Shown: positions 58,556-64,000 of the stretch, in pieces
How positions within the stretch are numbered: position 1 is the stretch's first letter
Layout: the number at the start of each line of letters is the position of its first letter
Assembly (NCBI GenBank): GCA_021298015.1
Contig: JAJTGY010000018.1
Location: 1 to 64,000, forward strand
Length of the DNA: 64,000 nt
Reading direction: 5' to 3'
Source of the DNA: Flammeovirgaceae bacterium
Lineage (GTDB): Bacteria; Bacteroidota; Bacteroidia; Cytophagales; Cyclobacteriaceae
The notes under the pieces: model-generated
Database searches by the model: none
Told to the model about the DNA's origin: nothing
Seen by the model: the letters and a program-made list of their open reading frames with translations, nothing else
Made by a program: the position numbers and the translations under genes

Positions 58556-59266
58556 TTAAATTTTCAACATTTCGTACACCCTTTGTTTGTACAATTGGCC
58601 GATGGGCAATTCAACATTTTCGACAAAAAGAGAATTGCCGTCAACCAAGTTGATAAAATGTATTGACACGATGAAAGATTTGTGAATACGCAGAAAATGA
58701 TCTGCGGGCAATGATTTTTCCAGGTTGGTGAGCGTTTCTTGTGCCAATACAATTTTATGGGTGATGTGTATTTTTACATAATTACCAAACGCCTCTACAT
58801 ACTTTATTTCGGGGTAGTCAATTTTGTAAATCTTGCGGTCGGATTTGACGAAAAGATAATTGCTCGGTTTTAGTACGGGTGTCGGCATCAAAGGCGGGGT
58901 GTTGGCTTGCAGGGTTGGAACCACTTTGTTGATTGCTCTTAAGAACCGATCAAAAGCGATTGGCTTAACCAGGTAATCCATGACACCAAATTCGTAGCTT
59001 TCCAACGCGTGTTCTGCATAAGCAGTTGTGAGAATAACCTTGGGCGGATTTTTTATGATTTTCAGTAAGTCTAACCCCGAAAGCTCAGGCATTCGAATGT
59101 CTAAAAAAAGCAAATCGACAGGTTGATTTCGCAACGCGTTACTGGCCTCAATCGCGTTTGAGCAAAGACCAACCAACTCCAAAGAATCGACTAAGCTAAT
59201 GAATCTCTGGAGTACTTTTTGTGCCAATGGCTCGTCATCTACGATCAACACCTTCGCTTTATTCAT
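58556..59266 (-). CDS. LytTR-family response regulator
   Basis: 'KVLIVDDEPLAQKVLQRFI...DLLFLDIRMPELSGLDLL' plus a LytTR C-terminus. Confidence 0.93.
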   Translation of the reverse strand: MNKAKVLIVDDEPLAQKVLQRFISLVDSLELVGLCSNAIEASNALRNQPVDLLFLDIRMPELSGLDLLKIIKNPPKVILTTAYAEHALESYEFGVMDYLVKPIAFDRFLRAINKVVPTLQANTPPLMPTPVLKPSNYLFVKSDRKIYKIDYPEIKYVEAFGNYVKIHITHKIVLAQETLTNLEKSLPADHFLRIHKSFIVSIHFINLVDGNSLFVENVELPIGQLYKQRVYEMLKI

Positions 59267-60264
59267 AACAGACTCAATTGAAGATTAACAACGAATTTGG
59301 TTCCCATATTTTCGATCGTTAACTGGTGTCTGTCAGGGTAAAGCAAATGAAGTCGTCTTCTTACGTTCTCAAGTCCGGTGCCAGAATTCTCCTCAACCAG
59401 CTTTGTTGAAATGCTGTTTTCTATGAAAAAGAAAAGTTCATTTTCTTCTATCCTCAGTTGGCTGTAGAGAAATGCATCGCCTACTGTGGCGTTGATGCCG
59501 TGCTTAAAGGCATTCTCGATAAACGGAATAAACAAAAGTGAGGCTATCGTCTTGTGTTGTGGTTCGCCCACAACTTCAAAGTCAATGGTAGCGCGGCTAT
59601 TCAGCCGAAGTTTCTCCAGCGTTAGATAATTCCTGATGAAATTGATCTCAGCGTGTAGCGCTGACTCTTCGTGCCGGCTGGTTTCGAGCATGTACCGCAT
59701 CAACTCCGATAACTTGACGACAGTGGCGGGGGCGAAGTCTGATTTTTCGAGCGTAAGCGAGTATAAATTATTGAGTGTATTGAATAGAAAATGGGGATTG
59801 ATTTGTGCACGCAGTAATTGAAGTTCGGCTTGAAATTGTTTGGCGGTCAGCTCCTTTTCTGCCAATTGTCGTTGAATACCCGACCGGTACATTTTCAATG
59901 CGCTGGTGATGATCACAAAAGTACTTAGGTTCACTATGTTTTGCAGCACAGTGGTTTGGTTATGGTAGAGATACTTTAACAGGGAGGTTAGACCGAATGC
60001 TGTAATGATTAAAGCGGTGACTAACGACAGAAAATACAAAACAAACTGATGTCGCCCAAGAAACCTTTTCATCAGCACATACATGTTCAAGTAAGAAATA
60101 AATGCGCTGAACAACAGTATGATCAACAAAAAGCTTACATAATCCGGGGGAAGTTCTTCGGCTGGAATCGAGAAAAAAAACAACAAGAGGAAACTTCCCC
60201 AAAAATAAAGGTGTAGAAAAATTCGGTTAGAAAGGAATTTGCCGAGTTGGTTAACGCGATGCAT
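59263..60264 (-). CDS. LytS-type sensor histidine kinase
   Basis: 'LRAQINPHFLFNTLNNLYSLTLEKS' and 'FIPFIENAFKHGI'; 4-nt overlap with the regulator. Confidence 0.93.
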   Translation of the reverse strand: MHRVNQLGKFLSNRIFLHLYFWGSFLLLFFFSIPAEELPPDYVSFLLIILLFSAFISYLNMYVLMKRFLGRHQFVLYFLSLVTALIITAFGLTSLLKYLYHNQTTVLQNIVNLSTFVIITSALKMYRSGIQRQLAEKELTAKQFQAELQLLRAQINPHFLFNTLNNLYSLTLEKSDFAPATVVKLSELMRYMLETSRHEESALHAEINFIRNYLTLEKLRLNSRATIDFEVVGEPQHKTIASLLFIPFIENAFKHGINATVGDAFLYSQLRIEENELFFFIENSISTKLVEENSGTGLENVRRRLHLLYPDRHQLTIENMGTKFVVNLQLSLL

Positions 60265-60343: not shown

Positions 60344-60490
60344 CATCGATTCGAAGGGTAAACCTATTCGTTTTTCGATTTCAGGAGTTGGTCATTGATT
60401 GCACGGAGAACATCATTCTTCCTTCTGGAAACTGAACGCACTAGCTATTCTTGCGTTGGTATCAGCAACTCATTAAAACATGATTTAATT

Positions 60491-60782
60491 ATGAAAACAA
60501 TTTCATTCACGATCGTTTTTTCATTTGCTCTGTTGATCGGATATGCTCAAACAAATAGCCCGACTAAGGCCGCTCCCTCAGAAAAAACCCCGGAAAGATC
60601 TTACATTTTTTTTCTGGGGCTTATTGAAATCAAAAAATTATAGGGAAGTAGGAAACCGCCCCGTAAAAATGAAAATTGAATGCCCTACACTTGATTCTGT
60701 AGACAACGGGCTGGAAAAGAAGCAAGCATTATGGGGCGCTATTCAATGGACCGAAAAAAAGAAATCACCCCAAAAGAAATGA
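60491..60782 (+). pseudogene. Small secreted protein, frameshifted at a T8 tract
   Basis: N-term frame MKTISFTIVFSFALLIGYAQTNSPTKAAPSEKTPERSYIFF; the downstream frame continues WGLLKSKNYREVGNRPVKMKIECPTLDSVDNGLEKKQALWGAIQWTEKKK; junction at the T run 60606-60613. Confidence 0.45.
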
Positions 60783-60786
60783 TGCT

Positions 60787-62157
60787 ATGAAGAGAGAACG
60801 AGTACTACTAGCCGTCTACAGTCTTCTGAAACCGGTAAGTTCACTGCTTATGATGGGCTTGTTGTTGCTTTCATCAGTCATTCACGCGCAAGGTGAACGC
60901 CAAGAGCGGCTATCACAACAGTGGGTTGTCGATAACGGGAAACCCGCTAACCTGGAGTTAACCACGCAGAAAGATTTTATATTTCTGAAAAACGAAGTCG
61001 GAAATAAGCCAGTCGTGGCGTTCGAAGAACAGACCCACGAAGACGAAGCCACTTTTCAACTAAGGGGTAAGGTAATTGACTACTTCATTGAGGAGCTGGG
61101 TTTTGAAGTGGTTTTTTTTGAAGTACGCATTTTCGATTTGCTGTATGCAAATGAGTCGGTTAACAGGTTTAAGCAGATTGACAGCCTCCGCAATAGTTTG
61201 TTTTGGTTTTGGAAAACGGCAAATCAGCATGATCATGTTTTATTCTTTTTACAGCAACAGCGCCAGCAAGGGAATACGATGGAACGTGGAGGATTCGATT
61301 GTAATCTGACCTCTTCTTGTGGGAGAATAGGTAGTCGGTACACGAAGAAGTTACAAGCGCAAATCAAAGCAGTTGATGCTCAGTTTTTGTTTACGAATGA
61401 ATTGATCTCCTACCTCCATTTCTGGGATCGGATAGAACTGGACATGAAGAAAGGAGGCATAGGGTCACTTTCATTCAAAATGAATAAACGTGAACAGTCA
61501 GATTTTTTAGAACAAAGTGTTTTTATCCAGCAATGGCTTCGTGACAAAGGGCAATTTGAATGGGCGCAAATTGTGAATTCAATTGACGAGGGCATTGTGC
61601 TCTGTACTGATTTTAGTATCGTCAGAGCGTTATTCAGTAAAGAATGGTTTTTACAGATAAACAACGGGCGAGATAGGCTGATGGCGGAAAATTTAGAGTT
61701 TCTACTCGCTGCGAAAAATGCCAACAAGAAAGTGCTCTTGGTTGGCGCTACGTATCATTTCGCATGAAACGTGCAAACAATAACGCCATCAAAGCTACGT
61801 GGTTTACGGTTAGATAAATCGGTAACCATGGGGGATATCATCCATCCATTGGTTCATCACGAAATGTACACCATTGGGTTTACCGCTTACCAGGGCACTT
61901 ACGGCTACGGTAAAAATGGAGGGAAGGGGAAATCCGTAGAAAAAGAATCAGTAAAGAGCTTGTCGTGTCAACGTGCCCGCCAAAAATACGATGCTCCTTT
62001 TGTGCTATTGAGTTACATGAATGACGAAAGTGAATATTGGTCCAACGGAGCAATTATACGATTTCTGGATTATGCAACCAATACTGCGGCACCGCATCGG
62101 AGTGCAGTAATGGACGCAGTAGTTTACATAAAAACCGTGACACCAATCATATGTTGA
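60787..62157 (+). pseudogene. Erythromycin-esterase-like protein, interrupted by in-frame TGA at 61765-61767
   Basis: N-terminal ORF ends '...LLVGATYHFA*'; same frame resumes 'NVQTITPSKLRGLRLDKSVTMGDIIHPLVHHEMYTIGFTAYQGTYGYG'; region equivalent to GEATHEDG reads EEQTHEDE. Confidence 0.7.
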
Positions 62158-62177
62158 ATTCGCCAAACGCAAAGTAA

Positions 62178-63602
62178 ATGAAAATACAAAACGATTCTTC
62201 TATTTATTCTATGATCCAATTTTGGCAACAGTGTGCTCGCCCTAACATGGTTAAGGTCTGCCTATCTTTTTTGATCATGCTTTTTCTTCACCAACCAACT
62301 AGAGGGCAATCTAGAGCGGACACCATAAAACTGCTGCTGGAATTTCCTTTGGCAGATTTTCCATACCAAACGTTGGCTAATAGAACTACCGGAGGTTTCT
62401 TCAGTGCATACATCAATCCTAGTATGAGCCAGTCTCTTGCTATGTCGAATAATTTATACTCTTCTGCTCACTACGGAATAAAGTCTCTGATAACGAAAAA
62501 AAGCAAGTTTAAAACACACCTATACAGAAACCTAGCGGCTCTGGGGTTTGATATATTCTCAGCTTATATTCCTTTTGGAAATGGTTGGCTTCATGAGGAA
62601 TATCACAGAGCAGTCATGACGCGGAGAGGGGTCAATAGCTTTAACCAGGTAAATACTTTCCCTTTTGGAAATGCTTTTGTTTCAGTGAACTCGGTGAGAG
62701 ATGAAGATTTGATTGTGTTGTCAGACAAATACAATAATGACTTCAGGAGATTGCAAGTAGCAGGAATGGAAGGCGAATATGCGCAAATCAGAACATTGCA
62801 GAGAAATAATTTCTTCTACAATCAGGGTTTGCCGCATATCCCGTTATTTTGGCTTTCTACACTCAACTCCATATCGTATTTAAGTGATTTGAGTGTATAT
62901 GATAAATCCATTGACCAGGCGAATGAAAAGGAGTTGACCATTGAATCGAGGGATTTCACAGGTCCGGATTACACTGCGTGGGTTTCGGCTTTGTATAACC
63001 CGCAACGACCCTATGAGGATAGAGGCATACATCCTTCTGGAACAGGTATTGACCGGTACGTAAAAACGACAGACCTGACTACAGAAGAACTTAACTACCT
63101 GAAAAGACAAGGTCAATTGCATTGGTTAAACGTTCTTTCCCCGCAATTATTCGGTTTTGGAAAGGTAAAACTTAACTCAAATGAAAAAGGCGTGTATTAT
63201 GGAAACTTCGCCATCAGGCACGTCCTGACACCTTTTGGAAACGATATCAGCTTAGACTTGTTTTACCAAACGCCCACAGACAACTATATGTTTTCATTGC
63301 ACAACTACAACAACCTTCATCAGTCATTTTTCGGTATTGAAGGTGGAATAATTGATAAGAAGATGACAGATAAATGGATGGTTAGCAGCAGGGGCATTCT
63401 TTGGACACAGCCGAAAAACCAATCTTTCAGTGATAGAAGAGCGAGTCTTGGTGGAGCGTTACACATTCGAAATTCCCTAAGCCTTAATTCTCTTAATCTT
63501 TTTTTAGATGTAGACGCAAAATCAGCAGGTTGGCTTATGGGCAATGTGTTTCTGGAGGAAAACGTCAGCTTGATTTTTGGGCTCAACGTAAGAGTAAACT
63601 AA
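62178..63602 (+). CDS. Secreted/outer-membrane-like protein with HEEYH (HExxH) motif
   Basis: 474 aa; signal region; 'GNGWLHEEYHRAVMTRRGVN'; repeated amphipathic beta segments; ends 'SLIFGLNVRVN' (aromatic/charged barrel-like end). Confidence 0.6.
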   Translation: MKIQNDSSIYSMIQFWQQCARPNMVKVCLSFLIMLFLHQPTRGQSRADTIKLLLEFPLADFPYQTLANRTTGGFFSAYINPSMSQSLAMSNNLYSSAHYGIKSLITKKSKFKTHLYRNLAALGFDIFSAYIPFGNGWLHEEYHRAVMTRRGVNSFNQVNTFPFGNAFVSVNSVRDEDLIVLSDKYNNDFRRLQVAGMEGEYAQIRTLQRNNFFYNQGLPHIPLFWLSTLNSISYLSDLSVYDKSIDQANEKELTIESRDFTGPDYTAWVSALYNPQRPYEDRGIHPSGTGIDRYVKTTDLTTEELNYLKRQGQLHWLNVLSPQLFGFGKVKLNSNEKGVYYGNFAIRHVLTPFGNDISLDLFYQTPTDNYMFSLHNYNNLHQSFFGIEGGIIDKKMTDKWMVSSRGILWTQPKNQSFSDRRASLGGALHIRNSLSLNSLNLFLDVDAKSAGWLMGNVFLEENVSLIFGLNVRVN

Positions 63603-63612
63603 TAATTAGATA

Positions 63613-64000
63613 ATGAAAACAATACTAAGGTTTCGTAAACTCATAGTTGCATTTACTTTTCTAGTGAGTCTACATACATCTATAAATGGATATTCTCAAA
63701 TACCCACACTGTCAGATGATTGGATTGGGAATAACGTGCATGAGATGGATATTGATTCAAGGGATAATTTAGGATTCTTAAAAAACGAAATCGGTGACAA
63801 ACGCATCGTGTTTTTGGGAGAGGCTACCCATGAAGATGGCGCTACCTTCGAGGTTCGGACGAAGATAGTGGAGTTCTTAATGGAGGAAATGGATTTTGAT
63901 GTTATCCTTTTTGAAGCGGGTATGTTTGATCTGATGCAAGCCAACAAAGAATTTCAAACAACAGGCGATTCTGAAAGCATAAAAAAAGCACTTTGGGGAT
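63613..64000 (+). CDS. Erythromycin-esterase-like family protein (N-terminal part, truncated by window end)
   Basis: Signal peptide; 'KRIVFLGEATHEDGATFEVRTKIVEFLMEEMDFDVILFEAGMFDL' (GEATH motif intact). Confidence 0.8.
   Translation, partial: MKTILRFRKLIVAFTFLVSLHTSINGYSQIPTLSDDWIGNNVHEMDIDSRDNLGFLKNEIGDKRIVFLGEATHEDGATFEVRTKIVEFLMEEMDFDVILFEAGMFDLMQANKEFQTTGDSESIKKALWG

Follow-up and report, generated by a model that had tools for sequence, protein, structure and literature searches.

A candidate outer-membrane-anchored HExxH metallopeptidase family of Bacteroidota

Introduction

Enzymes with an HExxH motif are mostly peptidases. One gene in the window, the whole 64,000-nucleotide stretch of DNA analyzed here, encodes an HExxH protein that a preliminary description could place in no family and took for a possible barrel-fused zincin. 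The locus raises the question of whether this protein is a metallopeptidase and, if so, which residues make up its active site. The reading we favor, with modest confidence, is an outer-membrane-anchored, metal-dependent peptidase of an undescribed Bacteroidota family. The plainer reading of a metallohydrolase is likely.

Open reading frame, export signal, and barrel-like domain

The gene and its two outer parts are as follows.
62178..63602, + strand: whole open reading frame, HExxH domain plus C-terminal barrel (ORF listing and translation), probable start at 62247
62247..62312, + strand: signal peptide, residues 24-45, MVKVCLSFLIMLFLHQPTRGQS, the sole segment of strong hydrophobicity apart from the C-terminal barrel
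63159..63602, + strand: outer-membrane-barrel-like domain of about ten strands (residues 328-471), AlphaFold2 pLDDT ~50-75 over most of it

As the preliminary description had it, the frame is open for 474 amino acids, and HEEYH lies at residues 139-143 (62592-62606). Translation probably starts at M24 rather than at the first codon of the frame because the signal peptide begins there; the profile match to relatives also runs from about residue 24. A hydrophobicity scan gave only one segment of export strength, near residues 24-43, and a search of the window protein for transmembrane helices after the signal peptide found none. In the predicted layout, the signal peptide leads into an HExxH domain that is largely helical and free of transmembrane helices, and about ten C-terminal strands follow.

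AlphaFold2 models of the full-length protein and of the isolated helical domain were made from an alignment of four sequences. Strands were predicted solely at residues ~328-471, and residues 63-324 came out mostly helical at low confidence (pLDDT ~25-33 in the HExxH domain, and no better for the isolated domain). Foldseek of this low-confidence model against the PDB returned no significant match; the best matches were mostly outer-membrane barrels, all below significance. The last third of the protein is plausibly a small outer-membrane barrel. The earlier view of the rest of the protein as beta-rich and barrel-like is thus plausible for this last third and wrong for the predicted helical part. 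Likewise, of the suggested membrane-embedded or barrel-fused zincin, fusion to a barrel-like domain is supported; the HExxH domain does not look embedded in the membrane, as no transmembrane segment follows the signal peptide.

Relatives include L002 (97%, a Cytophagales MAG), L003 (46%, a Saprospiraceae MAG), and L004 (43%, a contig labeled Tannerella). In L002, a deletion of ~1.4 kb (L002:7884-9275 compared with window 60912-62328) took out the greater part of the esterase-like gene upstream, so that the signal peptide of that gene is now joined in frame to the mature HExxH protein in place of the native one. The export signal can therefore be exchanged without loss of the mature protein. 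The 423 codons shared by the window gene and its L002 copy have a dN/dS (NG86) of 0.09; the HExxH domain by itself gives 0.04, and the barrel 0.29. The HExxH domain is under strong purifying selection.

An unnamed family with an invariant motif

No credible match was found in Pfam, NCBIfam, or the PDB sequences for the window protein (P0001), its profile, or relatives from all branches, which agrees with the earlier failure to recognize a family. A literature search found no paper directly on this HExxH-barrel family, and the viral and phage collections held no relatives. By sequence, this is a real family that so far is found in Bacteroidota only. Matches occur in 6 of 149 genomes of the family, 18 of 292 of the order, 12 of 395 of the class, and 2 of 396 of the phylum; these counts include the genome of the window itself as well as a small number of barrel-only, fragmentary, or spurious matches (e.g., G026). 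From this scattered presence, the HExxH-barrel gene is an accessory gene with a patchy distribution.

The main family was aligned as 26 members with pairwise identities of 21-92% over 451 columns, 35 of which are invariant. Invariant residues include W137, H139, E140, E141, H143, R144, D60, D175, G196, R258, D259, G262, D264, and W268. Two of the conserved features are listed here.
62586..62609, + strand: W137-L-H139-E140-E141-Y142-H143-R144, candidate zinc-binding and catalytic motif, by conservation in the 26 members
62355..62357, + strand: D60, possible ligand or structural residue, invariant in the 26 members

The family motif is W-x-H-E-E-[YF]-H-R, where residue 142 is Tyr or Phe and the other named residues do not vary in the 26. 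With E141 beside the candidate catalytic Glu and R144 at the end, it carries more charge than zincin motifs usually do, a point against the enzymatic reading. HExxH alone would prove little because 0.9% of shuffles of the window protein contain it; the weight lies in its invariance among the 26 relatives. HEEYH, put forward earlier as a metalloprotease-type motif, is conserved in that H139, E140, and H143 do not change in the 26 members, and a conserved HExxH is what marks the zincin tribe.

Branches of the superfamily

A second profile (A4), built from remote relatives, recovered further branches. With the barrel removed, the HExxH domain of the A4 set aligns with the main family at an hhalign probability of 97.8% (E 7.6e-13), with HE..H and GxD in register; the barrel profiles of the two sets align at 99.3%. 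In the remote set, HExxH is kept in two proteins, L023 (HEEGH) and L024 (HEAGH). Eight have HExxGH (i.e., HExxxH) instead: HEVNGH, HEIFGH, HEVYGH, HEVSGH, HEAFGH twice, HEVIGH, and HERYGH. These HExxGH loci (L027, L028, L029, L030, L042, L063, L064, and L079) thus have the second His one residue further from the Glu than in HExxH.

A third branch, L065-L073, mostly has QDxxGH in the place of the motif. It matches the A4 set at 98.1%, though its front domain gives no direct match to the main family (2.0%). These copies are probably catalytically dead or altered. Eight of the QDxxGH proteins (L065, L066, L067, L068, L070, L071, L072, and L073) have a basic tail past the barrel. In a tree of the barrel only, which has some long branches and leaves finer placement unsure, the HExxH proteins group together (100/99) and the QDxxGH proteins form a single cluster (100/100) inside the HExxGH part of the tree. 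A tentative picture, a little short of an even chance, is that of a new metallopeptidase family with a soluble helical HExxH...Asp domain that its own small C-terminal barrel keeps at the outer membrane, with HExxH, HExxGH, and decayed QDxxGH versions of the active site all occurring in a single superfamily.

The fold has some role without the canonical motif because the QDxxGH branch lost the motif and yet keeps the rest. The same persistence of the architecture would suit a conserved metal site that serves structure, metal sensing, or trafficking at the outer membrane and performs no hydrolysis, and the sensor-kinase or AraC-type regulators encoded nearby would suit it as well. In zincins, however, the Glu between the two His binds no metal and does the chemistry, and none of the 26 main-family members departs from it. 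A non-hydrolytic site is accordingly given a minor share of the probability and is judged rather unlikely.

Genomic neighborhood

The neighboring genes in the window are the following.
58556-59266, - strand: LytTR response regulator (Pfam Response_reg, LytTR)
59263-60264, - strand: LytS-like histidine kinase (Pfam His_kinase)
60787..62157, + strand: erythromycin-esterase-like gene, upstream, likely operon member, with an in-frame TGA at 61765-61767
63613..64000, + strand: start of the downstream erythromycin-esterase-like gene (PF05139, E 1.9e-20), complete in the contig with 447 amino acids

The LytS-like kinase and LytTR regulator lie divergently upstream of a closely spaced run of + strand genes. 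This run is made up of a small secreted gene (60395-60643), an esterase-like gene, the HExxH gene, an esterase-like gene that begins 10 bp past it, and then two more. Past the second esterase-like gene, the rest of the contig encodes a small secreted protein and then a CAAX-type (Rce1-like) protease. The intact esterase-like paralogue at 63613 is 33% identical to the TGA-interrupted copy. The small secreted protein of the window is related to one at L010:5068-5382; the two lie on either side of the esterase-like and HExxH genes, show SYIFF.G and YSFLWG motifs, and have no Pfam match.

In L047, related kinase and regulator genes directly adjoin the HExxH gene, and in Spirosoma oryzicola a LytTR gene is directly upstream of it. 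An AraC-type regulator lies beside or near the HExxH gene in four clade-B loci; two clade-B genomes (L049:9365-10408 and L052) have the order AraC-type regulator, S41-peptidase-family gene, HExxH gene. LytTR-type regulators, AraC-type regulators, and the S41 peptidase are the recurrent neighbors. A conserved operon partner was considered and rejected, as no neighbor family is present in more than a few loci. The neighborhood suggests regulated expression and names no substrate because no neighbor is common to most loci. Near two members (L004:4734-6926 and L054:10098-12212) are ABC transporters whose N-termini look like C39-type peptidase-containing ones, possibly by chance.

In this strain, the two secreted erythromycin-esterase-like genes with which the HExxH gene seems to form an operon could instead indicate a metal-dependent hydrolase that acts on a non-peptide substrate, e.g., a lipid, glycan, or small molecule, and the lack of a match to any peptidase family points the same way. 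The esterase-like neighbors are not conserved in relatives, however, and in the two clade-B loci just named the gene sits next to one for an S41-type peptidase. This alternative is held to be about as improbable as a non-hydrolytic site, and a peptide substrate is still preferred.

The third metal ligand

Two further segments are candidates for the third ligand.
62760..62777, + strand: A195-G-M-E198-G-E200, helix of the form AG-x-[EQH]-x-[EQ], its Glu not conserved in the alignment
62949..62969, + strand: R258-D259-F-T-G262-P-D264, candidate third ligand D264 and second-shell residues, with R258, D259, G262, and D264 invariant in the 26

GMEGEYAQ had been proposed to supply a third-ligand Glu, as in HExxH...E enzymes. 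The segment is where it was said to be, beginning 53 residues past the second His of HEEYH, but the assignment is not supported. In the main family, residue 198 is Glu, Gln, or His and residue 200 is Glu or Gln. Over a wider set of 35 members, position 198 is Glu in 21, Gln in 12, and His in 2, and position 200 is Glu in 19, Gln in 10, Asn in 4, and Asp in 2. L016 has AGVHAQ (H198, Q200), and so neither Glu, with HExxH, D259, and D264 intact. The conserved downstream Glu of a gluzincin is not seen here.

D264, in the motif RDFxGxD, is the likeliest third ligand and a better candidate than either Glu of GMEGEY. It is Asp in 34 of the 35; the sole exception, L022, is also without HExxH. In L022, a decayed copy carried by a short contig, HEEYHR has become HNEFTK, R258 is Ile, D264 is Glu, and AGMEGEY is retained. 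Since these positions were lost jointly while AGMEGEY was kept, L022 points to H143, E140, R258, and D264 forming one site with AGMEGEY outside it.

A gluzincin-type enzyme with the Glu of GMEGEYAQ as third ligand would account for E198 being conserved in the window's own clade, for the mostly AGxEA sequence of the HExxGH relatives at this helix, and for G196 being present in 35 of 35. Against it are the substitutions at 198, the alternation of E200 with Gln, the intact HExxH of L016, and the retention of AGMEGEY in L022 after HExxH was lost. It is unlikely, more so than the two alternatives above.

D264 is a conserved Asp downstream of HExxH, as in Asp-zincins. The short Asp-zincin motif is HExxHxxGxxD (PMC3890501), and the window protein departs from it, as HEEYHRAVMTRRG has no Gly or Asp within six residues after HExxH.

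Comparison with known peptidases

M41 and M50 also use Asp as the third ligand, like the Asp-zincins. The window family resembles these three in its invariant Asp downstream of HExxH and differs in the spacing of ~120 residues between the two and in the C-terminal barrel. From M41 and M50 it further differs in having no detectable profile similarity and no transmembrane helices. Profiles of M41, M48, M50, and M50B were built from relatives of the host, and against these the main-family HExxH domain scored 0.1-0.3% in hhalign, where the M50B side was one sequence. The positive controls scored 98.1% (M48-M48) and 91.6% (M50-M50). Membership of M41, M48, or M50 was rejected on these scores and the absence of a Pfam match.

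Membership of the M50 (site-2 protease) or M41 group would explain the shared order of HExxH, AG helix, and Asp, and the best zincin-family score of the HExxGH branch is to M50 (24%, E 8e-4), in an alignment that covers HE.GH and the AG helix. However, this 24% is not significant, the main-family scores are far lower, and the transmembrane helices that hold the M50 motif have no counterpart, as no hydrophobic segment surrounds HEEYH in the window protein; isolated weak hydrophobic peaks occur in a few relatives. Such membership is very unlikely.

BepA-type M48 periplasmic metalloproteases are likewise HExxH metallopeptidases working at the outer membrane. They have no barrel and a gluzincin third ligand, and the comparison of the window family with the M48 profile was negative. 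Omptins and autotransporters similarly couple proteolysis to an outer-membrane barrel. In omptins, though, the barrel itself houses the active site, and the autotransporter barrel is 12-stranded, whereas the window protein has a separate helical HExxH domain before its ~ten strands.

The FP0506 elastase of Flavobacterium psychrophilum resembles the window protein in that it is secreted, has HExxH, and represents a metallopeptidase family that is unassigned and confined to Bacteroidota (PMC6414381). It differs in being, by its description, a surface lipoprotein (predicted) some 250 residues long whose ExxA motif follows HExxH at 19 residues, with HHpred similarity to the M48-like PDB 3C37 and no mention of a barrel (PMC6414381).

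That HEEYH arose by chance in an otherwise ordinary protein of the outer membrane would fit the shuffle frequency in a genome that encodes thousands of proteins, but it is hardly credible: the motif is unchanged between relatives only 21% identical, L022 lost it together with D264, and dN/dS is 0.04.

Proposed mechanism and implications

For the preferred reading of a barrel-anchored peptidase, we infer a scheme that takes in metal binding, the ligand set, proteolysis, the membrane side, and control by the regulators. The protein would be exported by Sec, and its small C-terminal barrel would insert in the outer membrane and hold the preceding helical domain there. The periplasmic side is probable, since 8-10 strands make too narrow a barrel for a helical domain to be exported through it. 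H139 and H143 would bind one zinc, D264 would most likely supply the third ligand, and E140 would act as the base that activates water; R144, R258, and D259 probably complete the site. The enzyme would cleave an envelope or exported peptide under the control of the nearby LytTR or AraC-type regulators.

If active, the protein would bring a further metallopeptidase family into the envelope biology of Bacteroidota, along with a new layout in which a zincin-like domain has an outer-membrane barrel of its own as its tether. The occurrence of both HExxH and HExxGH in one superfamily, with decayed copies beside them, would then amount to a natural experiment on how much the distance between the two zinc His can vary. 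Annotation pipelines label these proteins hypothetical, including two copies on Spirosoma plasmids.
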